This document shows, piece after piece, positions 9,642-28,436 of a stretch of DNA of 64,000 bases. A program made the position numbers and the translations under genes. The stretch covers positions 1 through 64,000 of the forward strand of contig JAKUTR010000005.1 of NCBI GenBank assembly GCA_022448725.1, read 5' to 3'. The notes beneath the pieces were generated by a model. It was not told the origin of the DNA, did not search any database, and was given only the letters and a program-made list of their open reading frames with translations. The stretch's first letter is position 1. Each line of letters starts with the position of its first letter. The stretch is from SAR202 cluster bacterium. GTDB lineage: Bacteria > Chloroflexota > Dehalococcoidia > Lucifugimonadales > VXLM01.

Positions 9642-11049
9642 CGAAGTAGTTTTTGCTCCGGTGCGGAAGTTAGCAGAGATGCTAAGGACAGGGTATGTAT
9701 CCCCCGTGGAGTTGACTGAGTTGTTCCTCAACCGACTTGAGAGCATTGGTCCAAATTACAATGCCGTCGTGACACTCACGGCGGACCGTGCACTTGAAGA
9801 AGCCCGTAAAGCACAGGATGAAATAACCGCTGGCCGGTATCTAGGACCTCTTCACGGTGTCCCCTATGGCATAAAAGACTTGTTTGCTACCGACGGTATC
9901 CCTACTTCATGGGGATCTGCGATGTTTAAAAACCAGGTTTTTGACTTCGACTCTACTGTGGCCGCAAATCTTAAACGGGCCGGAGCTATACTCTGTGCCA
10001 AGCTCGCGATGGTGGAACTTGCCGGGGGGATCAAGTACTCTCAAGCCAATAACACCTTTACTGGACCTGGAATCAACCCATGGGGGGGCGAGACGTGGGC
10101 TGGAGGATCATCAAGCGGGTCCGGCTCTGCAGTTGCAGCAGGATTAGTGCCTTTCGCTATAGGGTCTGAGACTTGGGGATCGATAATCCTGCCATCAGCA
10201 AACTGTGGCCTGAGTGGTCTACGCCCTACTTATGGCCGTGTGAGCCGCCACGGAGCGATGGCTTTATCTTGGACACTCGACAAGCCAGGGCCAATGTGCC
10301 AGACAGCGGACGACTGTGGCCTAATATTGGAAGCTATCTCCGGTCCTGACGGCACTGACATTGCAATGACTAACCGACCATATAAGTACGAGCAATTGGG
10401 CCGTGAGACCTTCAATATTGCAGTACTCAAAGACGCTACAGACGACATAGATACTGAAATTCGGGATGCTTTCATCGTGGCGACTGAACAACTTGGTCAA
10501 ATGGCAACAATCGAAGAAGTGGAATTGCCGAACTACCCTTATCCTGCGGTCACCAGCGCTATATTTATGTCCGAGTCTGCAAGTGTTCTCTCAAATTTTG
10601 CCGAGAGTCAGAAGTCAGGAGAATTGACTGCTCCAGAAATGCGCCATGGGTTGTATGCGCGCAGCGCATCCCTCTCCACCGATTACTTGAGAGCTATGCG
10701 GATTCGCAAGATGATCGCCATCGAGATGGACCAACTACTGTCTAAATACGATGCATTGGTGGCCCCTTCCAGACCAGCGTTTGCGTACCCGCTCGATGGT
10801 GATTGGCATTCCATTCGTAGCAGGGACGTAGTAGGCGCAATGGGCAATGCTGCTGGACTACCAGCTATCTCTGTACCATCAGGATTCTCCAAAGACGGGT
10901 TGCCGGCAGGCATAGTGTTTATTGGCCGTGCATATGAAGAAAACCGGATCCTAGCCGTAGCTAACTCATATCAGTCAATGACTGGATGGCATAATCAACA
11001 TCCAAATGTTCCGGAAAGTGACATCAACAGCGAGGCACCACATGACTAA
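9631..11049 (+). CDS. Amidase-signature hydrolase (AtzE/GatA-like)
   Basis: This 472-residue amidase-signature enzyme hydrolyses a carboxamide by a Ser-cisSer-Lys triad. The Lys is in PYGIKDLFATDG. The Gly/Ser block AGGSSSGSGSAVAAG holds the cis-Ser, and the nucleophile is the Ser of ETWGSIILPSANCG. That block reads W in place of a common Gly and lacks the usual SIR arginine, so the substrate pocket probably differs from GatA. I set the start at the ATG at 9631, where homology begins, rather than an upstream in-frame ATG inside the partner gene. It overlaps the next gene by eight bases. The partner and malonyl-CoA synthetase suggest a small dicarboxylic amide substrate. Confidence 0.88.
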   Translation: MTVNEVVFAPVRKLAEMLRTGYVSPVELTELFLNRLESIGPNYNAVVTLTADRALEEARKAQDEITAGRYLGPLHGVPYGIKDLFATDGIPTSWGSAMFKNQVFDFDSTVAANLKRAGAILCAKLAMVELAGGIKYSQANNTFTGPGINPWGGETWAGGSSSGSGSAVAAGLVPFAIGSETWGSIILPSANCGLSGLRPTYGRVSRHGAMALSWTLDKPGPMCQTADDCGLILEAISGPDGTDIAMTNRPYKYEQLGRETFNIAVLKDATDDIDTEIRDAFIVATEQLGQMATIEEVELPNYPYPAVTSAIFMSESASVLSNFAESQKSGELTAPEMRHGLYARSASLSTDYLRAMRIRKMIAIEMDQLLSKYDALVAPSRPAFAYPLDGDWHSIRSRDVVGAMGNAAGLPAISVPSGFSKDGLPAGIVFIGRAYEENRILAVANSYQSMTGWHNQHPNVPESDINSEAPHD

Positions 11050-12070
11050 AACCCTAAACGTTGCCTTTATTGGATGCGGTGGCATCAGCAAATACCATGT
11101 CAAAAACGTTGTCTCTTCACCTCACCTGAGACTCGTCGCAACCATGGATATGGTTGAAGCCCCTGCGCGGGAACGCGCACAAGAGGGTGGCGCAGACTAT
11201 TGGACTACCGACCTGGACAGAATCCTAGCGGATCCGAACATTGATGCCGTCATGGTGTTCGCGACCCATAATACACATGCCGACCTGACCGTCCGAGCCT
11301 GCGAAGCTGGCAAACATGTTTTCGTCGAGAAACCACCTGCGATGACCATTCAAGAAGCTAAACGAGTTCAGCAGGTTGCATACGAGACCAATAAACACGT
11401 TATGAGTGGCTGGTGGTTCAAACACTCACCGATAACCAAACGCCTTCGTGAGGTTATCGCCAAACCGCAGTTCGTACTGTTCACGTGCCGTATCCCACGG
11501 ACTAACGCTAAAACCGGTCACCCACACAGTGAAGATCCTTACGCTGCGAACGGAATACTGGATCTTGCAGGATACAATCTCCACTGGATTTGGCATGTCG
11601 TACGGTCTCAACCAGTAGAAGTAATAGCTATGGGGTACGGTGGTCAAGCTACCAATACCAGTACAATCCTTATACGATTTGAGAATGGTGCGACTGGTAA
11701 TTCCGTCACAAGTCTAGCCGGAGGCGGGGGCATAATTCCTAAGCATTATGCCGAGGGCGGTGCAGGCGATGTTAGTGCCGCGACGCTCCGCTTTGGTAAC
11801 CTCGTCTTCGAAGGTACAGATGAACCAGGTATCGTGGGAAACGCGTACCACAATGGATTTGACGAAGAGATGTCCATGTTCGCCGATCTATGTCTGAATA
11901 ACGGTACCAATCCTATGGATATTTGGGAGGCCTGTATTCCCACTGTGATCTTCGAGAAAGCCGTAGAGTCGATGGACACAGGTCGTGCTGTGCCCATTGA
12001 CGTACATAAGGAGTTCTACTTACCGAACGGTGAACTCCCTCCTAGCATCGCCCAGTTCGGTGACAACTAA
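11042..12070 (+). CDS. Gfo/Idh/MocA-family oxidoreductase
   Basis: This is a 342-residue NAD(P)-dependent oxidoreductase. The N-terminal Rossmann motif is VAFIGCGGISKYH. The characteristic EKPPAMTI segment supplies the catalytic Lys of the EKP motif, and DLAGYNLHWIWHV in the C-terminal domain holds the conserved Asp/His pair region. Such enzymes oxidise sugars, inositols or their derivatives. The ATG overlaps the amidase stop by eight bases, and the DUF6807 gene follows after three bases, so these genes are co-transcribed. The substrate is not evident; a glycosyl or cyclitol compound is likely. Confidence 0.88.
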   Translation: MTKTLNVAFIGCGGISKYHVKNVVSSPHLRLVATMDMVEAPARERAQEGGADYWTTDLDRILADPNIDAVMVFATHNTHADLTVRACEAGKHVFVEKPPAMTIQEAKRVQQVAYETNKHVMSGWWFKHSPITKRLREVIAKPQFVLFTCRIPRTNAKTGHPHSEDPYAANGILDLAGYNLHWIWHVVRSQPVEVIAMGYGGQATNTSTILIRFENGATGNSVTSLAGGGGIIPKHYAEGGAGDVSAATLRFGNLVFEGTDEPGIVGNAYHNGFDEEMSMFADLCLNNGTNPMDIWEACIPTVIFEKAVESMDTGRAVPIDVHKEFYLPNGELPPSIAQFGDN

Positions 12071-12073
12071 CAC

Positions 12074-12967
12074 ATGGGCAACTTCACCGTCGAACCTGAC
12101 GAGGTCGACCTCCCACGCGGGGCGACCGCTGGCGCGCGACGCAAATGGGTGCGGTGGCAAGGCAAGGCAGTCACGGCACTCAGCCAAAACTCCCATCGTG
12201 CGTATCTTTTCCCAGTCCTTACCCCAGAAGGAGTCGCACTAACAGCCGAAGCGCCGATCGATCACCCTCATCATAGTTCTCTCACTATTGGCACAGACCA
12301 TTTCGATGTGGCCTATATTTATGGTGAGAGCCGTGAGGAGCGAGGCACCTACAACTTCTACGTCAATGACACTTTCCAGGGTCGTGCAGCAGGCCGCACC
12401 CTAGAAACATCTTTGCATTGGGAGGAGTTAGCAAGTGACCACCTAAGCATTGACCAGCAGGTCGAATGGCAAGGCCCCGCCGAGTGGGGCGCACCCAACC
12501 GCAGAACACTTGCCATCGAGACACGAACAATTGACATACACGCTAGCGAGAGATCGAACGAGATTACCGTAACCTCACGGCTAGAACCAACCAACTGGAA
12601 GATTTCTATTGGCCCGCCTCGCCATGCTTACTTCACGGTTCGAATCGCTGATGGCTTACGCGTGGTCGACGGTGGCAAATTAATTGATTCCGAGGGTGCC
12701 ATAGGAGGTAACTCAGTCAGTAAGGGCAATGCGGTCTGGGTCAACGCATCTGGTATTGGTCCCCACAATAAACGAGCTGGCTTGACGGTGATTCCTAGGG
12801 CCAAAGATGGGATCCCACATTGGTACGCTCATGACTGGGGCAGTATCGCACTCAACCCCTTCCTCAACAAGAAACAAGTTGTCGGTGTAGGGGACAGCCT
12901 TGAGCTTAGCGTCACCTACATTGCATACGATGGTGATGCGCCTAGTCCCCCCGTAATCAAGAGTTAA
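12074..12967 (+). CDS. DUF6807 (PmoA-family) protein
   Basis: The 297-residue protein contains the family hallmark RAYLFPVLTPEGVALTAE followed by PIDHPHHSSLTIG, a His-rich strand typical of DUF6807, which some databases label PmoA. The rest is beta-rich (for instance VDGGKLIDSEGAIGGNSVSK), fitting a galactose-mutarotase-like sandwich. The family is often found next to Gfo/Idh/MocA oxidoreductases in sugar catabolic loci, as here. Despite the family label, nothing suggests methane oxidation. Activity is unproven. No signal peptide is visible, so it is probably cytosolic. Confidence 0.75.
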   Translation: MGNFTVEPDEVDLPRGATAGARRKWVRWQGKAVTALSQNSHRAYLFPVLTPEGVALTAEAPIDHPHHSSLTIGTDHFDVAYIYGESREERGTYNFYVNDTFQGRAAGRTLETSLHWEELASDHLSIDQQVEWQGPAEWGAPNRRTLAIETRTIDIHASERSNEITVTSRLEPTNWKISIGPPRHAYFTVRIADGLRVVDGGKLIDSEGAIGGNSVSKGNAVWVNASGIGPHNKRAGLTVIPRAKDGIPHWYAHDWGSIALNPFLNKKQVVGVGDSLELSVTYIAYDGDAPSPPVIKS

Positions 12968-19312: not shown

Positions 19313-20491
19313 TTGGCCTCAGACGCAACCCACACAACATCCGCACGCCACGTCATGTGGGTAGCTCGCCTGGTCGTACTAGTTGCCTTCCTTGACCTGT
19401 TCATGCAGTTCCCAACTGTTTCACCATTTGCAGAGGGATTAGGAGCATCTGCCGCGTTTGCGGGGATTATCGTTGGTGCCTATTCGTTCACCAACATGTT
19501 TGGCAACCTCGGGGCAGGCTTTGTGATCGACCGGTTCGGAAGGCGGGTCCCAGTACTTATCGGACTGGGAATAACCAGCATCGCAGTTGCAACATACGCG
19601 ATGGCACAATCTCCGGATCAGTTATTGATATCTCGCGCACTACATGGATTGGCGGCTGCCATGCTCGCGCCGGGCGCCTTTGCGATCGTTGGGGATAGCA
19701 CTCGTTCAGGGAGCCGGGCTCACTCAATGGGCCTCACTGGAGCAACTATCGCCATTGCTGCTCTTATTGGACCACCGATTGCGGGAATCCTGAAGGACTC
19801 GGTAGGTGCAGAGTCCGTCTTTCTTCTTGCCTCTGGTTCACTGGCTGTCACATACGTCGTTTTTTGGGCGGCTACCCGCAACCTCCAAGAGGGGAAACCC
19901 GTTGACACAGTCGTCTCGCAAGATCGAAGCATTTTGACAATAAATCCCATGCTGGGTGCGTATGCGACTGCACTAGCATTCACTATTGGTCTAGGAGCTT
20001 TAGTCGCATACATGCCGATAATGCTGGAGGCCCAGGGAGTCTCCTCGGCACGCGTCGGTAGCACGTTTGGCATCTTTGCCATAATCGCCCTGATTGCTAT
20101 GGGGAGCCCGATCAGCCGACTTAGTGATAGGAAAGGACGCCTGGGCCCATTGATGGGCGGGCTGGCGTTGATTGCCGTGTCACTCGCAGTGGTAGGGCTT
20201 CTGGCAGACTATACGGGTGTAGCTCTGGGGATGGCCACTTTTGGCCTGGGGTACGGGCTCGTTTTCCCTACTACGGCAGCTATCGTTAGTGAGTCATCTG
20301 GGGCTGATAGAAGGGGATTGGCGTTCGGAGTGTTCTACGCCGTCTACTCCCTGGGGGTCGTCATCGGATCAGTAGGTAGCGGAGTTATTGCCGAAACGCT
20401 CCAAGATCCGATCGGCCTACCTTTCCTGATTTCGGTTGGCGCAGTGGTAGTTCTAGGTATCTTCGCTTGGTTCTGGATCAGGAATTCATAA
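19313..20491 (+). CDS. MFS transporter
   Basis: This 392-residue, 12-helix major facilitator protein carries the loop 2-3 motif (GAGFVIDRFGRRVPVL) and a weaker repeat in the second half (SRLSDRKGRLGPLMG). It sits in the inner membrane as a proton-coupled or exchange carrier; sequence resembles drug-efflux and sugar-type MFS without allowing a choice. The start is uncertain: TTG at 19313 gives a soluble N-terminal stretch, whereas an ATG 14 codons later sits just before helix 1. It follows the CocE-type gene by 130 bases. Confidence 0.85.
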   Translation: MASDATHTTSARHVMWVARLVVLVAFLDLFMQFPTVSPFAEGLGASAAFAGIIVGAYSFTNMFGNLGAGFVIDRFGRRVPVLIGLGITSIAVATYAMAQSPDQLLISRALHGLAAAMLAPGAFAIVGDSTRSGSRAHSMGLTGATIAIAALIGPPIAGILKDSVGAESVFLLASGSLAVTYVVFWAATRNLQEGKPVDTVVSQDRSILTINPMLGAYATALAFTIGLGALVAYMPIMLEAQGVSSARVGSTFGIFAIIALIAMGSPISRLSDRKGRLGPLMGGLALIAVSLAVVGLLADYTGVALGMATFGLGYGLVFPTTAAIVSESSGADRRGLAFGVFYAVYSLGVVIGSVGSGVIAETLQDPIGLPFLISVGAVVVLGIFAWFWIRNS

Positions 20492-20505
20492 GTCGTAAAC
20501 TACCA

Positions 20506-20543
20506 GAACTTACCCTCACTGCTTGAACTTACCCTCACTGCTT
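20506..20543. repeat. Tandem direct repeat, two perfect 19-base copies
   Basis: Two identical, adjacent copies (20506-20524 and 20525-20543) of a unit starting GAACTTACC and ending CTGCTT lie in the convergent gap between the MFS gene and the first TIM-barrel paralogue. It looks like a recent slippage duplication. No hairpin or coding role is seen. Confidence 0.8.
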
Positions 20544-20557
20544 AAGGTTTCGTCCAA

Positions 20558-22123
20558 CTACTCGTACCGAACCCACAGGCGGATCTGCTGCAAAACCAGA
20601 TCCTTTTGCCTCGATGAATCTGATGATACCAATCCAACTTCGATTTCGTTTATGCCGCTAGTCAGCGGAGGCGCAGTAACATCGACGTCCAAAGAAACCC
20701 CTGGCATGTGTTCCGTGAGGGTACCAGAAGGATAGACGTTCCAAGAATCTTGGTAAAACTCCCGGGTCCAACCATCGGTGGAGCGGCTCACTGTACCCAA
20801 ATCCGTTCCATTGAGCTTGATCCGAACATCATCGTCGCTAGAGAGGTTGTCAAACAGAAGGCTTAACGTACAGGTACCCATTGCACCCTCGGCTGTGGCC
20901 TTTTCAAAATCTTCAGTAATGTCCATCTTGACAACCAATCCCTCACCATTGGACGTTTCTCTTAGAGTGACGGGTAGCTGAGTACGAGGAATAGCATTGA
21001 GGAACGTGAGCTGCAGATAACCAGTAGGAGAGAATCGATCGCGAGGGTCCGTCTCATAACGCTTCATCAATCGTTTGAGCCCCTCCCGGTCAGTCAGGCG
21101 CCCAAGTACGTCACGCTTCCAGTCTCGGGGCATACTATAAAAATTGAACAAATAGAGACCATCTATCCCAGCAGACCAGTACCGTGACGCGATAGCTCTC
21201 AAGGTGAGTTCGTCAACGGCTGGGCGGTAGCCTTCGAGACACCCGTAGACAAGGGTATCCGTTCCCCGAGCAGCTTCTACGAATTGCTCCATTGGCATCT
21301 CGAATGGGATGAACCCACCCCCTGCGACGACGATGTCTACAAGCCCTTCGTCAATCCACTTGAGGATGTCGAGGCCCAATCCTTCGCATCTCTCAATCGT
21401 GGCAGGTACACGAACCATCAGATCGAGGCCTTTACCTCGCTGAAGCCCAATCTCATCCATTCGCCTGCGAACGCGCCGTACCAAGTCCGTCATCAGGTAG
21501 CGGTTCGAATATGCCTCCTGGATGTTGAAATACGTGGGGTGGCGGAAGAAGTCTAGTTCGAGTCCATCAACGTCCCAGCGCTCTATCGTCTCTATGAGGA
21601 TGCTGCAAATATAGTCTCTTACCTCTGGGACCGCATAGTCGAGACCCCGTCCAACTCCCCATTCGGTGCTATTCTCCGGCAGGTCCTTGCCTCTGCCTAT
21701 GGTCCATTCAGGGTGCTCGATCCGCACTTTTCCGTATGAAGGATCATCGTAAGGTATGGGGTAATGCTCATTCATTCGGAGCGATGGCATGAAGTCAATG
21801 CCAAGACGGTGGCATTGCTCAGTCAACACGGTCAATGGCCCACCATGGTTACGCATTAGATAGGCAAGATTTGCACCGCGGTTTGCACTGTTCCGATTCT
21901 CAGCGTTCACATAAGCTTCCGCACCAGTCAAACCAATCTTAGTCTCGTAGTCATACACATCATGGCCACCAATTGAGTAAAGGAGCGCATCGACGGGTGA
22001 GCCCTCGTGCGGTGCAACCATGTCGGACCAGATCTTCTCCGGCGTCAGCGGAGGATCAATGAATGCCAGGATCCATGCGTCGTCATTATCGATAACTCTT
22101 CTAACCTTCCCACTTCGCGGCAT
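20558..22123 (-). CDS. Glycoside-hydrolase-like TIM-barrel protein, paralogue 1
   Basis: This 521-residue protein has a TIM-barrel-like N-terminal region and a beta-sandwich-like C-terminal third. Key stretches are WDVDGLELDFFRHP, with acidic residues placed like GHL10 or GH10-like glycosidases, then VDIVVAGGGFIPFE and GIDGLYLFNFYSMP. The C-terminal part begins near IKLNGTDLGTV. It is divergently arranged with two further members of the same family. No signal peptide is visible, so action is probably cytosolic. AGGAG lies seven bases before the ATG. I do not recognise a characterised close relative; sugar hydrolysis is inferred from the fold pattern only. Confidence 0.7.
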   Translation of the reverse strand: MPRSGKVRRVIDNDDAWILAFIDPPLTPEKIWSDMVAPHEGSPVDALLYSIGGHDVYDYETKIGLTGAEAYVNAENRNSANRGANLAYLMRNHGGPLTVLTEQCHRLGIDFMPSLRMNEHYPIPYDDPSYGKVRIEHPEWTIGRGKDLPENSTEWGVGRGLDYAVPEVRDYICSILIETIERWDVDGLELDFFRHPTYFNIQEAYSNRYLMTDLVRRVRRRMDEIGLQRGKGLDLMVRVPATIERCEGLGLDILKWIDEGLVDIVVAGGGFIPFEMPMEQFVEAARGTDTLVYGCLEGYRPAVDELTLRAIASRYWSAGIDGLYLFNFYSMPRDWKRDVLGRLTDREGLKRLMKRYETDPRDRFSPTGYLQLTFLNAIPRTQLPVTLRETSNGEGLVVKMDITEDFEKATAEGAMGTCTLSLLFDNLSSDDDVRIKLNGTDLGTVSRSTDGWTREFYQDSWNVYPSGTLTEHMPGVSLDVDVTAPPLTSGINEIEVGLVSSDSSRQKDLVLQQIRLWVRYE

Positions 22124-22273
22124 TTTGTACTCCTGATTCTAGGTACGCACCGTGTGCTGCACTACAGGCTTAGCAAGCAAAGATTGTAGTAATTTTGGCA
22201 ACGGCCCTGAGGAACATGTCACAATCCCGTCCACAAGGCGGATACTATCACGTCAAACTTGCACCAACCTCGT

Positions 22274-22291
22274 TCCAAACGTATCTTTGGA
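22274..22291. promoter_or_regulatory. Candidate operator between divergent paralogues 1 and 2
   Basis: TCCAAA and TTTGGA form a perfect inverted repeat around a six-base spacer, in the 220-base divergent region between two related genes. It might bind a sugar-responsive regulator. Confidence 0.3.
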
Positions 22292-22343
22292 CCCTACACG
22301 ACCATAATGCAGTACTCGAATCCAAGTTGGGAGATCAAGCGCA

Positions 22344-23843
22344 GTGAAAAAACAACGGATCCTCTATTTCAATGACGCACGGCATTACTACCTATTCGTG
22401 CACGAGCCACCAATGTCTTTGGAAGAGGCATGGCGGCCAATCGATGAGATAGCCGGTACTAGCGTCAACACCTTCGTCTACGGGGTCGAGAGAGGCGATG
22501 GACTCTTCTACCCATCCCGAGCTGGCCGCATGTTCGAAGGAAGCATGTTGGAAACTGGAGGGCACGAATTCACATACGAATGGCGCACGGTAAAGAACAT
22601 GCAGGGACTCATCGACCGCGGCCTCGATCCCCTTACGGTTCTGATCGATAGGGCTCACGCCAAGGGAATGGAGTTTATCGCTAGCCTCCGCATGCACTCA
22701 TATCTAGGGCTTAAAGACGAGCACCGCGTACCAACTGCCGAACCCTGGGCTAGTAACCCTAGCATTGCGGGTTCGGGTCTGCTCTTTAATGGAGCAGATC
22801 ACTCTCATAAGGAAGTTCGGGAACACAATCTCGCCGTAGCTGGAGAGCTAGCCCGCGATTACGCAACCGACGGCGTAGAACTTGATTTCATATTTACTGC
22901 CCACTCCTTCCCTCGTGAGGAAGCTCGAGACAAGCTCGACGTTATGACCAACCTTGTAGAGGAGATATCCGAGACGGTCCGCGGTAGGCCTGGGAGCCCC
23001 GGAATACTTGGTGCTCGAGTACTCCCAACCGAAGAGATGTGTCTGAACGCGGGCCATGACGTGAGAGACTGGCTCGACAAGGGTTTACTCGATTACGTGC
23101 TGCCCATGACGTATGACCCTTTCCGTCTCGACTGCGATCCTCCAATCGAGTGGCTAGTCGAGGCAGCACAGGATACAGACACATCCGTTTATGGTTTCCT
23201 GCACCCATACTACCAATCAGAAGGCGTGCGACGGTTCATTGAAGTACAGCACGCGACCCCTGCCATGGTGCGGGCGGCGGCGGCAAACAATTACAAAAAA
23301 GGCGTCGACGGGCTGTGTGCGTGGTTCCTCAAATGGCCGCTTGGTGACGACCAGCGTGGTCTCCTAACGCAGATAGGTGACCCGGACCTGTTGGAAGAAA
23401 GTGACAAACACTACTTCCTAAGGTGGCGAAGCGACACGATGGCAACGGTTGGCTGGGATGGCCAGGTCCCACAACCCATCGAGGTAGGTGAGAAATCGAG
23501 CTTCACATTTGAAATAGCTGACGATCCTATCGGAAATGCCCGACGCATTCGGCAGCTACTGCTGCGTATCAAGCTAGACAACTCCGCTCGTGACGACCAG
23601 ATCACCTATACCTTGAACGGGGATTCTCTAAATGAAGAACAAGTCGTTTCCTCTTACGGAGGTCAAATCGCACCTTACCAGGCCCGCTGGCTGGAGTTCC
23701 GACTAAGGAAAGTCACGCCTCGGCAAGGCCTCAACGAACTAACCATTAGCCTCGACGGCCGTCCTGATGGATTGGATGGAAGCATTACCGTCGAGGACGT
23801 TGAACTACTCGTGGAATATACTCCGTATCCAACCGAGGTTTGA
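22344..23843 (+). CDS. Glycoside-hydrolase-like TIM-barrel protein, paralogue 2
   Basis: This 499-residue relative of the divergent gene has the N-terminal signature LYFNDARHYYLFVHEPP and the barrel motif TDGVELDFIFTAHSFP. Next come LLDYVLPMTYDPFRLDCD and GVDGLCAWFLKWPLGDD, and then a C-terminal beta domain (TYTLNGDSLNEEQ to VEDVELLVEY). The conserved aspartate/glutamate pair in GVELDF would be catalytic if it is a glycosidase. The start is GTG with only a distant GGGAG. Its stop overlaps an in-frame TTG of paralogue 3. Function is unproven. Confidence 0.7.
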   Translation: MKKQRILYFNDARHYYLFVHEPPMSLEEAWRPIDEIAGTSVNTFVYGVERGDGLFYPSRAGRMFEGSMLETGGHEFTYEWRTVKNMQGLIDRGLDPLTVLIDRAHAKGMEFIASLRMHSYLGLKDEHRVPTAEPWASNPSIAGSGLLFNGADHSHKEVREHNLAVAGELARDYATDGVELDFIFTAHSFPREEARDKLDVMTNLVEEISETVRGRPGSPGILGARVLPTEEMCLNAGHDVRDWLDKGLLDYVLPMTYDPFRLDCDPPIEWLVEAAQDTDTSVYGFLHPYYQSEGVRRFIEVQHATPAMVRAAAANNYKKGVDGLCAWFLKWPLGDDQRGLLTQIGDPDLLEESDKHYFLRWRSDTMATVGWDGQVPQPIEVGEKSSFTFEIADDPIGNARRIRQLLLRIKLDNSARDDQITYTLNGDSLNEEQVVSSYGGQIAPYQARWLEFRLRKVTPRQGLNELTISLDGRPDGLDGSITVEDVELLVEYTPYPTEV

Positions 23844-23884
23844 CATCTGGGTCTATTGAAGCAATCCTTCCAAAGCTAATGCCT

Positions 23885-25303
23885 ATGAAACGCACCATCT
23901 ACTTCGACGATGCACGCCACTACTTTCTGTGGAACTTCGAGCCCCCCATAGACCTGCGCGACTTCCACAGTGTGATAGACCAGGTTGCTGGTACCGCTGT
24001 CGACACCTTCATCTATGGCGTAGCCCGCATGGATGGTCTCTTTTACGACACTAGTGCAAGCCTTCGGTTTGGAGCGGATCGTGAATCGTTCCGAGGACAC
24101 TACGAGTGGCGAGCATACAACTCCCTTCAGAGCCTAATCGACCGTGGGCTGAGCCCACTCCAGTTACTCATCGACCGTGCCCATCAGAAGGGGATGGAAT
24201 TTATCCCCAGTCTTCGTCTTGGTGAGTACGGCACAATGCCTGAGTCGATGAATCCCAGGCACGGAGGCCGTGGCTGGGTTCACGACGAGGTTCGAGCGCA
24301 CTTGATGGGCATAGTCAAAGAACTCGTAGCGGATTTCCCAACCGATGGAATAGAACTCGACTTTGCAGCTCCGCCTGCTGGATGCGCACCCTTGCTTCAG
24401 CCAGAAGACGTTAGTGAGTACACACCCGTCCTCACAGAGTGGCTCCGCGAGGCAAGCTCCTTAGCTCGTGACAACAATGGAACGGTGGGCGCGCGTGTTT
24501 ACCCGACCTCCGAACTCAATGACGCGGCTGGATTCGATATAGAGACATGGCTAAATGAAGGATTGGTGGACTATGTGGCACCACTCGTCTACGCACACAA
24601 CATCCTCGATTGCGACACTCCAATCGAGTGGCTCATAGAGTCTGCACACCAGGCAGGTGTGGCCGTCTATCCAATTCTCATGGCTTACTACAACAATGAA
24701 GACCGGCATTACCACACACGCGAGATGGCAACCCCGGAGATGATGCGTGCCGCCTTCGCCAACCATTGGGCAAAAGGGTGCGATGGTATGTACACATGGT
24801 TCATGCGCTGGCCTCTTGGCGAACGTGAACGGAGTACGCTGTCAGAAATGGGTGATAGAGACTTGATTGCACACAAAACCAAGCACTATTTCGTCAATAG
24901 GGACACGCCCAACGGACAAAGAGTGGGATTCGACAGACCACTGCCCTTGGAACTACCTCTCTCTAGCCCAGAAAGTGTCTCTGAAGTTCCCTTCTACGTT
25001 GCCGACGACTGTGCAAGCGACCAGGTTTCGAATGTTGTTTTGCAAATTCGGTTGCACAGCATGGTCTCAGCCGACAAACTGGTAATCAAAATGAACGGGC
25101 AGTCCCTGGCCGAAGAGACCTGCCTACGATCACGTCCACACCCAATGTTCCCTTATGACACTCTTCTCGAGTTCCATCTACGGGACGTCCTGCCACGCGT
25201 AGGGGCAAATACACTTCAACTATCACTCGAAGCGCGCCCACCAAAACTAGGTAGCACCGCCGTGCTCGAAGATGTCGATATCATCGTGAATTACCAAGCT
25301 TAG
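23885..25303 (+). CDS. Glycoside-hydrolase-like TIM-barrel protein, paralogue 3
   Basis: This copy is closest to paralogue 2: IYFDDARHYFLWNFEPP at the N-terminus, TDGIELDFAAPP at the putative active strand, then LVDYVAPLVYAHNILDCD, CDGMYTWFMRWPLGE and a final beta domain ending VLEDVDIIVNYQA. I start it at the ATG matching the paralogue's MKKQR N-terminus; ATG at 23879 and a TTG at 23840 are alternatives, none with a good ribosome site. Divergence between copies 2 and 3 is considerable, so they are old duplicates, probably with different substrates. It is likely co-transcribed with paralogue 2. Confidence 0.7.
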   Translation: MKRTIYFDDARHYFLWNFEPPIDLRDFHSVIDQVAGTAVDTFIYGVARMDGLFYDTSASLRFGADRESFRGHYEWRAYNSLQSLIDRGLSPLQLLIDRAHQKGMEFIPSLRLGEYGTMPESMNPRHGGRGWVHDEVRAHLMGIVKELVADFPTDGIELDFAAPPAGCAPLLQPEDVSEYTPVLTEWLREASSLARDNNGTVGARVYPTSELNDAAGFDIETWLNEGLVDYVAPLVYAHNILDCDTPIEWLIESAHQAGVAVYPILMAYYNNEDRHYHTREMATPEMMRAAFANHWAKGCDGMYTWFMRWPLGERERSTLSEMGDRDLIAHKTKHYFVNRDTPNGQRVGFDRPLPLELPLSSPESVSEVPFYVADDCASDQVSNVVLQIRLHSMVSADKLVIKMNGQSLAEETCLRSRPHPMFPYDTLLEFHLRDVLPRVGANTLQLSLEARPPKLGSTAVLEDVDIIVNYQA

Positions 25304-25510
25304 TCTTCGGAAAGCTAGGGTTCTCAGGAACGTATGTGATGTGCTCCCTTGGAGTCATCCGTACCCCAGGAAATCAGGCCAGCCTTGCCATTCCCCACTC
25401 CTACCGTAGGTTCGATCAGCAGCATAAGGGATGACTGGAGGTCTCTTCCCAGAAGCCGCCCATTCCCGCCACTCGGTCACACCTCAGGATCGTTCGGAGA
25501 ATCTCTGGCG

Positions 25511-27281: not shown

Positions 27282-28436
27282 ATGCCAACACCCAAGATTA
27301 CAAAGATCGAGATACACCAGTTCGAATACGAACTTACCGACCTAGCCCATGGCAATGAAGGCGCTATATATAAGCCCGGTAGCACGATTACTAACACTGC
27401 TTGCGCCATAAGGGTACTGACAGACGTAGGGGTCGTTGGCGAGTACGCCTCTGCCAACGTGTTCGAGTTTACAGGGATTGCTACATTTGCCAAGTCATTG
27501 ATAGGTGTCGATGCTCTCGCACGAGAATACGTCTATTCGAGAATTAAGCAGGCCGCTCGACAGCAGGCAGAGGTTGGCATCGCACCGGTAGATATTGCTC
27601 TCTGGGACCTTGCAGGCCGCTACCACGATGCACCTATACATCGTCTCCTGGGTGGATTCCGAAAGACTTTGCCAACATATGTGGCGAGTGTGCATGCATC
27701 AGAGCACGAAGATCTTGCGACCCCTGAAGAGATGGGAGACTTCGCTGTGCAGTGTAAAGAACTCGGGTATCCCGCCTTCAAGATTCACGGTTGGGAGAAC
27801 GGGCGGGTCGACCGGGAAATCGAGGCTATCCTCACCGTCCGAGAGCGCGTGGGTGATGAGATGGACCTGATGTCAGACCCATATAATGCTCTTCAAACGT
27901 TCGCAGACGCTTTCAAAGTGGGCCGTGCATGCGATGAAGCAACGTACCTGTGGTACGAGGACCCTATGGCAGATGGTGGAATATCTCAGCACGGTCATCA
28001 ACGGCTACGGGACCTTCTCAGCACACCGCTCCTCATCTCTGAGCACGTTCGTGGTCTAGAGCCACGCGTCGACTTTATGGTCAGTGGAGCAACGGACTTG
28101 GTACGCGGCGACGTACAGTACAACGGAATCACAGGGACGATGAAGCTGGCCCACGCAGCTGAGGGGCTGGGCCTCGACATCGAACTCCATAGCCCGGGAC
28201 CAGCTCAGCGGCAATGTATGGCCGCCATCCGCAACACCAACTACTACGAACTATCAGGCTCTCGGGCCAAGGGACCAAACTCCAATCAACTGCCCATATA
28301 CACTGACGGCTACAGTGACCAGATCGATGACGCTACTGACGGCCACTTCCCAGTTCCACAAGGACCGGGGCTCGGAGTAACCTACGATTGGGAGATGATC
28401 CAGAAAAGAAGGACTGATCTGGTCGTTTACGAATAA
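27282..28436 (+). CDS. Enolase-superfamily enzyme (mandelate racemase/muconate lactonizing type)
   Basis: This 384-residue enzyme has an alpha/beta capping domain and a barrel. The proton-handling Lys is in FKIHGWENG. Metal ligands follow in LMSDPYNAL and WYEDPMADGG, then in LISEHVRG. A late HSPGPAQRQCM supplies the family's second base region. It probably dehydrates or epimerises a carboxylic acid such as a sugar acid. It is in an apparent operon with the small hydrolase and converges directly on a sugar-isomerase-like gene, with only abutting stops. Substrate unknown. Confidence 0.88.
   Translation: MPTPKITKIEIHQFEYELTDLAHGNEGAIYKPGSTITNTACAIRVLTDVGVVGEYASANVFEFTGIATFAKSLIGVDALAREYVYSRIKQAARQQAEVGIAPVDIALWDLAGRYHDAPIHRLLGGFRKTLPTYVASVHASEHEDLATPEEMGDFAVQCKELGYPAFKIHGWENGRVDREIEAILTVRERVGDEMDLMSDPYNALQTFADAFKVGRACDEATYLWYEDPMADGGISQHGHQRLRDLLSTPLLISEHVRGLEPRVDFMVSGATDLVRGDVQYNGITGTMKLAHAAEGLGLDIELHSPGPAQRQCMAAIRNTNYYELSGSRAKGPNSNQLPIYTDGYSDQIDDATDGHFPVPQGPGLGVTYDWEMIQKRRTDLVVYE

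Follow-up and report, generated by a model that had tools for sequence, protein, structure and literature searches.

Three adjoining genes, here called A, B and C, in a 64,000-nucleotide stretch of a SAR202 cluster bacterium (Chloroflexota; GenBank assembly GCA_022448725.1, contig JAKUTR010000005.1, positions 1 to 64,000; "the window") encode relatives of glycoside hydrolase family 156 (GH156). Combining profile searches, structure prediction, a maximum-likelihood tree and gene neighbourhoods, we arrive at a reading to which we assign a probability of about two in three: all three would be cytosolic, exo-acting glycosidases of the GH156 fold, A of an ulosonic-acid type and B and C re-tooled for other, probably acidic, sugars. 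An original prediction, made from the sequence of the window, had described the trio as looking like glycosidases that it could not place in a known GH family. The finding itself is real and less mysterious than it then seemed, and its frame was too narrow, the genome containing 33 family members in all; the scale of the family and its re-tooling are of more interest than three unplaced genes.

Results

The three genes are full-length homologues, one on the minus and two on the plus strand as the original prediction had it (Table 1), and full-length BLASTP gives 40% identity between B and C (E=3e-121), 26% between A and B (E=1e-26) and 24% between A and C (E=1e-26). For each of them the inverting GH156 exosialidase EnvSia156 is the best match among PDB chains (phmmer: A 7.6e-18, B 1.2e-11, C 1.4e-5). 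Built from 32 paralogues of this genome, a profile finds EnvSia156 at E=1.3e-64 over residues 7-386, with the next-best PDB protein, Cwp19, at 2.9e-18, and profiles restricted to the classes I and II defined below reach 5.9e-65 and 4.1e-31. The AlphaFold2 models of A and of B (predicted local distance difference test score 89.5 and predicted template-modelling score 0.91 each) consist of a (β/α)8 barrel followed by a C-terminal β-sandwich, at residues ~10-350 and ~396-520 of A. This agrees with the glycosidase-type triosephosphate isomerase (TIM) barrel and C-terminal β domain foreseen for the trio, and corresponds to the two-domain layout of EnvSia156 (PMC6811678). Foldseek places GH156 first for both models, with 6s04, 6s00 and 6rzd matched across both domains: A matches 6s04 at E=6.1e-35, with template-modelling (TM) scores of 0.77-0.82 to 6s00/6s04/6rzd, and B matches 6s04 at E=3e-29 with a TM score of 0.79. 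These genes can thus be placed with respect to a known GH family, EnvSia156 being the best PDB sequence match of all three and the best PDB fold match of A and B. By sequence and predicted fold A is a new, divergent GH156 member of predicted activity, only ~20% identical to EnvSia156 in the fold alignment.

Matches to other barrel families are weaker. GHL10, a broad and mostly uncharacterised barrel family, had been named as a lead, and a profile search bears the hint out, but marginally: the match to Pfam PF02638 scores 27.9-31.5 bits against a cut-off of 27.9 and covers 40-113 of 311 positions, around strands β3-β4. NCBIfam gave no match above its cut-offs for A, B or C. A GH18 match of B, weak and below threshold, was rejected, and so were TreZ/amylase matches confined to the β3-β4 motif. 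The retaining sialidases of GH33/34/83 have a six-bladed β-propeller and a Tyr nucleophile; no match to this propeller was found for the trio with Pfam, or for A and B with AlphaFold2 and Foldseek, which return a TIM barrel instead.

Cwp19 is the second-best structural match and PgaB appears lower down, which, with the GHL10 match, could indicate action at the cell envelope by lytic or glycan-trimming barrels such as these. The Cwp19 match is, however, far weaker than that to GH156 (E 7e-13 vs 3e-29; TM 0.47-0.49 vs 0.79, query-normalised), the GH156 active-centre residues are reported to be absent from Cwp19 (PMC6811678), peptidoglycan is reported to be missing from SAR202 bacteria (PMC11994032), and family members in this genome carry no export signal; we regard envelope action as very improbable. 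A cytosolic location, as first predicted, agrees with the absence of a signal peptide from every family member of this genome (judged by eye) and with a catalytic Asp placed as early as residue 11-24 in A, B and C. Elsewhere, twin-arginine-type leaders (also judged by eye) stand on the class II N-termini of Acidobacteriota, Planctomycetota and Acidimicrobiia (L090-L097, L099), for example MSVTRRKFVQALTAAGGAG, and class II proteins of Chloroflexota, Latescibacterota and Poribacteria have no leader: the same enzymes, in a different cell compartment.

In EnvSia156, Asp14 is the base and His134 the acid, Arg129, Arg202 and Asn346 hold the carboxylate, Arg246 is buried, and Asn15 and Ser16 contact the glycerol chain (PMC6811678). 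We aligned 137 family members with EnvSia156 residues 7-386, each of the named residues being confirmed at its published number. A keeps all five functional residues, namely D15 (Asp14), R116 (Arg129), H120 (His134), R194 (Arg202) and N327 (Asn346), with H120 one alignment column earlier than His134 (MNEHY vs MNDVHY), and also has R238, equivalent to Arg246. B and C keep the equivalents of Asp14, Arg129, Arg246 and the invariant Glu197, B retaining D11, R116, E179, D181 and R225. Their equivalents of His134, Arg202 and Asn346 are absent, leaving Arg129 alone of the carboxylate clamp, and an invariant Arg-His follows the catalytic Asp at the Ser16/His17 positions (R13-H14 in B), so placed that R13 of B stands where Ser16 of EnvSia156 touches the glycerol side chain.

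The sequence motifs singled out by the original prediction are real and take on a structural meaning in this alignment. The DARHYY/DDAW start contains the Asp aligned with catalytic Asp14, DG[VIL]ELDF, where strand β4 ends, includes a Glu that is invariant and an Asp that is nearly so, and DGLY/DGLC is strand β8. The predicted acidic pair corresponds to Asp14 and the Glu197/Asp199 motif, but the published GH156 acid is a His, and this His is lost in B and C. At the sequence level A can thus largely be assigned to GH156; B and C cannot, because half of the GH156-defining residues are missing. Judged by this alignment, B and C are GH156-fold relatives without the acid His and the full carboxylate clamp, best called a variant, class II.

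Class labels were assigned mechanically: class I has both Arg202 and Asn346, class II comprises the rest with Arg129, and class III has lost Arg129 too. A His at +3 to +5 past Arg129, which lies outside this definition, follows the classes, being present in 29/30 class I, 8/81 class II and 5/24 class III sequences. In core class II (75 rows), Arg129 and E197 are conserved in 100%, D14 and the Arg at Ser16 in 99% and the His at His17 in 97%; Arg202 gives way to Phe or Ala, and Asn346 is deleted in 100%. On the maximum-likelihood tree 4 changes account for the class labels, compared with 48 on average when labels are shuffled, and the residue loss in class II is, on this sequence record, clade-wide and ancient. 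A deep split of the tree separates A from B and C, and these two are not sisters. The trio is therefore paralogous, as had been proposed, but is not the product of one local duplication, an origin rejected on the evidence of the tree.

Two further explanations bear on the residues lost from B and C. One is that all three proteins are ordinary GH156 exosialidases in which the loss is tolerated. They share the fold and the base Asp, and His134 variants of EnvSia156 retain much activity on the activated substrate 4-methylumbelliferyl-N-acetylneuraminic acid (4MU-Neu5Ac) (PMC6811678). Yet two of the three carboxylate ligands have gone as well, a bulky Arg occupies the Ser16 glycerol-contact position, and the age and clade-wide extent of the loss speak against tolerance, making this explanation improbable. 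The other is that B and C, as pseudoenzymes, have no catalytic activity and serve the adjoining class I enzyme by binding sugar or by regulation, as the loss of the general acid and of half the substrate clamp and the recurrence of class II genes beside class I genes might suggest. We consider it unlikely: conservation of the equivalents of Asp14, Glu197, Arg129 and Arg246 is 99-100% over at least seven phyla, class II genes mostly occur by themselves, and a genome that retains 20 members without the full set is hard to square with a dead partner. We favour re-tooled, active glycosidases over both.

Of the 33 members in the genome (2.09 Mb in 75 contigs, 95% complete), 32 are full-length and the remaining one lies where a contig ends; one more match, the 34th (contig C10, 1.2e-8), is a distant barrel and was left uncounted. 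The class rule assigns 12 to class I, 12 to class II and 8 to class III. The enolase superfamily, with 20 matches representing ~18 genes, is less numerous, and sulfatases give 9 matches over the cut-off. Three genomes of the same genus hold 36, 35 and 32 members; these are the metagenome-assembled genomes (MAGs) SB0661_bin_13, APA_bin_48 and IRC4_bin_30, which, from the isolate names, may be sponge-associated. The SAR202 isolate OSU_TB39, of the same order, has 23. Strong members occur in 16 of 147 sampled genomes of the order, most having none, and at a stricter threshold in 10 of 400 genomes of the phylum. Outside the phylum, a Terriglobia chromosome carries 43 members, an Acidobacteria MAG 42 and an Acidimicrobiia MAG 37, and genomes of Planctomycetota, Poribacteria, Latescibacterota, Gemmatimonadota and Zixibacteria carry 3-21. 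Class II forms a separate clade with representatives in at least seven phyla, chiefly in MAGs from the sea and from sponges. Because loci beyond this order were retrieved by class II patterns, they give no measure of how widely class I is distributed. When contigs were scanned for relatives, a 7-row class II alignment gave matches and B alone gave none. Another genome of the order (G036, a single contig of 2.7 Mb) gives 22 matches, most of them weaker (E 1e-34 to 1e-63), in open frames of ~560-690 aa and several in tandem (e.g. C1:1853881-1862290); by sequence, they probably form another, more distant expanded subfamily.

Within the trio, C follows B on the same strand and the two are probably co-transcribed, judging from this arrangement. 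For C, an ATG at 23879 or 23885 is probably the start rather than the TTG at 23840, because relatives of C begin ~10 residues before the catalytic Asp. The divergent promoter proposed between A and B reduces to their divergent orientation, since no sigma-70-type promoter was found at 20400-25500.

Class I and class II genes also recur together elsewhere, as counted from family open reading frames: a class I gene adjoins class II in 11 of the 48 class II-bearing loci of other genomes. In five Acidobacteriota loci (L090-L093, L096) a class I gene diverges from one or two class II genes, the layout of A with B and C. In Gemmatimonadota (L107:3453-12147) a same-strand run comprises class I, a creatininase family gene, class II with an overlapping start, a sulfatase, PhyH, a gene of the UxuA-type mannonate dehydratase family and a second PhyH. 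A second locus (L111:411-8620) repeats this order, the full class I gene missing at the contig end, and we regard the run as a candidate acidic-glycan catabolic cluster. Other class II genes adjoin BNR sialidase-like and dihydrodipicolinate synthase (DHDPS)-family aldolase genes (L099) or neighbour heparinase II/III-like (L098), GH32 (L138) and Gfo/Idh/MocA (L140) genes.

Several further arrangements were observed. In this genome, contig C67 carries a second cluster, in which a class I gene and two of class II are consecutive on one strand (L039:51-4576); another class I gene lies at L039:12344-13924. Three Chloroflexota MAGs from sponges (L129, L130, L133) encode, after a class II pair, a protein of ~840 aa without a Pfam match (e.g. 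L133:9378-11903). In the window, a Gfo/Idh/MocA oxidoreductase adjoins a DUF6807 protein at 11006-12967, and Gfo/Idh/MocA genes recur near family members elsewhere. The best NCBIfam models for the enolase-superfamily gene downstream of C (Table 1) are arabinonate/gluconate dehydratases, below cut-off.

Table 1. Genes A, B and C, their key codons and neighbouring features, in window positions.
Feature	Position	Strand	Description and basis
Gene A	20558..22123	-	521 aa; class I, GH156-type glycosidase (predicted), complete residue set (phmmer vs PDB, motif table, AlphaFold2, Foldseek)
Codon D15 of A	22079..22081	-	Equivalent of EnvSia156 catalytic base Asp14 (alignment)
Divergent intergenic region A/B	22124..22343	.	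220 bp; no consensus promoter found
Gene B	22344..23843	+	499 aa; GTG start after GGGAG; class II, GH156 fold (predicted), altered site
Codon D11 of B	22374..22376	+	Equivalent of EnvSia156 catalytic base Asp14 (alignment)
Codons R13 and H14 of B	22380-22385	+	Class II Arg-His (alignment)
Gene C	23840..25303	+	487 aa counted from TTG; class II, residue pattern as in B
Codon D24 of C	23909..23911	+	TTG numbering; equivalent of EnvSia156 catalytic base Asp14 (alignment)
MFS transporter	19313..20491	+	Convergent neighbour of A; Pfam MFS_1 3.4e-60
Enolase-superfamily gene	27282..28436	+	Sugar-acid dehydratase-like, context only; Pfam MR_MLE_C 3.9e-36

Discussion

We propose that A hydrolyses, with inversion, the α-ketosides of a nine- or eight-carbon ulosonic acid, such as Neu5Ac, ketodeoxynonulosonic acid (Kdn) or a relative, in which case D15 would activate the water, H120 would protonate the leaving group and R116, R194 and N327 would hold the carboxylate. 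B and C would cleave a different, still anionic glycoside. Their retention of the base Asp and one clamp Arg, together with the gain of Arg13, suggests that the anionic sugar is held differently, and the sulfatase and UxuA-family context leads us to favour a uronide or a sulfated sugar as the likeliest substrate; E179, D181 and H14 are candidates for the general acid of class II. Since members of this genome have no signal peptide, we envisage that glycosides are imported, possibly by the major facilitator superfamily (MFS) transporter convergent with A, cleaved inside the cell, and their products passed to sugar-acid enzymes.

Several observations weigh against this proposal or parts of it. 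NanE is absent from this genome and from its three genus mates. NanE is needed for the usual breakdown of Neu5Ac, and a Kdn-like sugar needs no epimerase; Neu5Ac itself may therefore not be the nutrient; either a Kdn-like sugar may be used or the cell may process Neu5Ac in another way. The co-localisation of class I and class II genes is suggestive, the loci being partly close relatives. On the tree, the present trio and that of Acidobacteriota are not orthologues, so that their shared layout either recurred or was reassembled. Around the 33 genes of this genome, finally, the Pfam content of near neighbours is much like that of far ones, for which reason we fix no single pathway and claim no conserved operon here.

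The substrate could also come from within, the enzymes trimming or recycling the cell's own nonulosonic-acid glycans, as in S-layer glycoprotein turnover, rather than scavenging outside glycans. The genome does encode NeuB, a nonulosonic acid synthase (7.5e-78, C1:132506-133213), and sialic-acid synthesis genes are reported in SAR202 (PMC11994032). However, all three genus mates have as many family members and lack NeuB, and 33 divergent copies suggest varied outside substrates; we give the recycling of own glycans little credence and retain the scavenging of imported glycosides. A more specific proposal, which we put forward tentatively as possible rather than probable, is that class II constitutes a new family or subfamily of glycosidases built on the GH156 scaffold, in which the acid is a different one and the anion pocket is rebuilt around Arg13 and Arg116. 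Its enzymes would act on sulfated glycosides or those of uronic acids, side by side with the ulosonidases of class I.

What has been described as a small sialidase family thus has 33 relatives in one 2.1-Mb genome, only 12 of which keep both clamp residues that define class I (Arg202, Asn346). The GH156 scaffold has radiated, and the residue patterns indicate that it has probably done so into functions beyond sialic-acid release, which makes it unsafe to annotate all members as sialidases. Mann et al. (2022), working on gut GH156, reportedly selected sequences by key residues. The residue table obtained here allows specificity to be predicted by class. Should class II indeed be such a new family or subfamily, its expansion would provide a way of using acidic marine glycans that has not been described before.

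Among known systems, the paralogue expansions of SAR202 likewise combine many divergent copies of one enzyme family with a small marine genome. Those described comprise FMNO, the enolase superfamily, dioxygenases and sulfatases; a GH156-like expansion is not among them (PMC6946804). The expansion seen here exceeds the enolase expansion of this genome and is unremarked in the SAR202 literature searched, in which GH156 is named once, for strain MD153 (PMC11994032), and no account of GH156-like expansions in SAR202 or in bacteria of sponges turned up in the literature searched. GHL10 gives a match to the trio around strands β3-β4, at or just above the cut-off, with only part of its 311 positions covered. 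Cwp19 of Clostridioides difficile (PDB 5OQ2/5OQ3), the nearest fold to EnvSia156 outside GH156 (PMC6811678), has a barrel with the same β3-β4 motif region, but is a peptidoglycan lytic enzyme whose active-site residues are not shared and whose match is much weaker. GH156 itself dates from 2018, when it was founded on a clone from a hot spring; the 38 nearest homologues came from eight phyla, and sialidase activity was demonstrated for two (PMC6254351). Closest of all is EnvSia156 (ORF12p of the uncultured bacterium pG7; PDB 6RZD/6S00/6S04/6S0E/6S0F), which shares with A, B and C the two-domain fold, the Asp base, Arg246 and Arg129, and with A the full catalytic set; B and C differ from it in lacking His134, Arg202 and Asn346 and in carrying an invariant Arg-His just past the base Asp.

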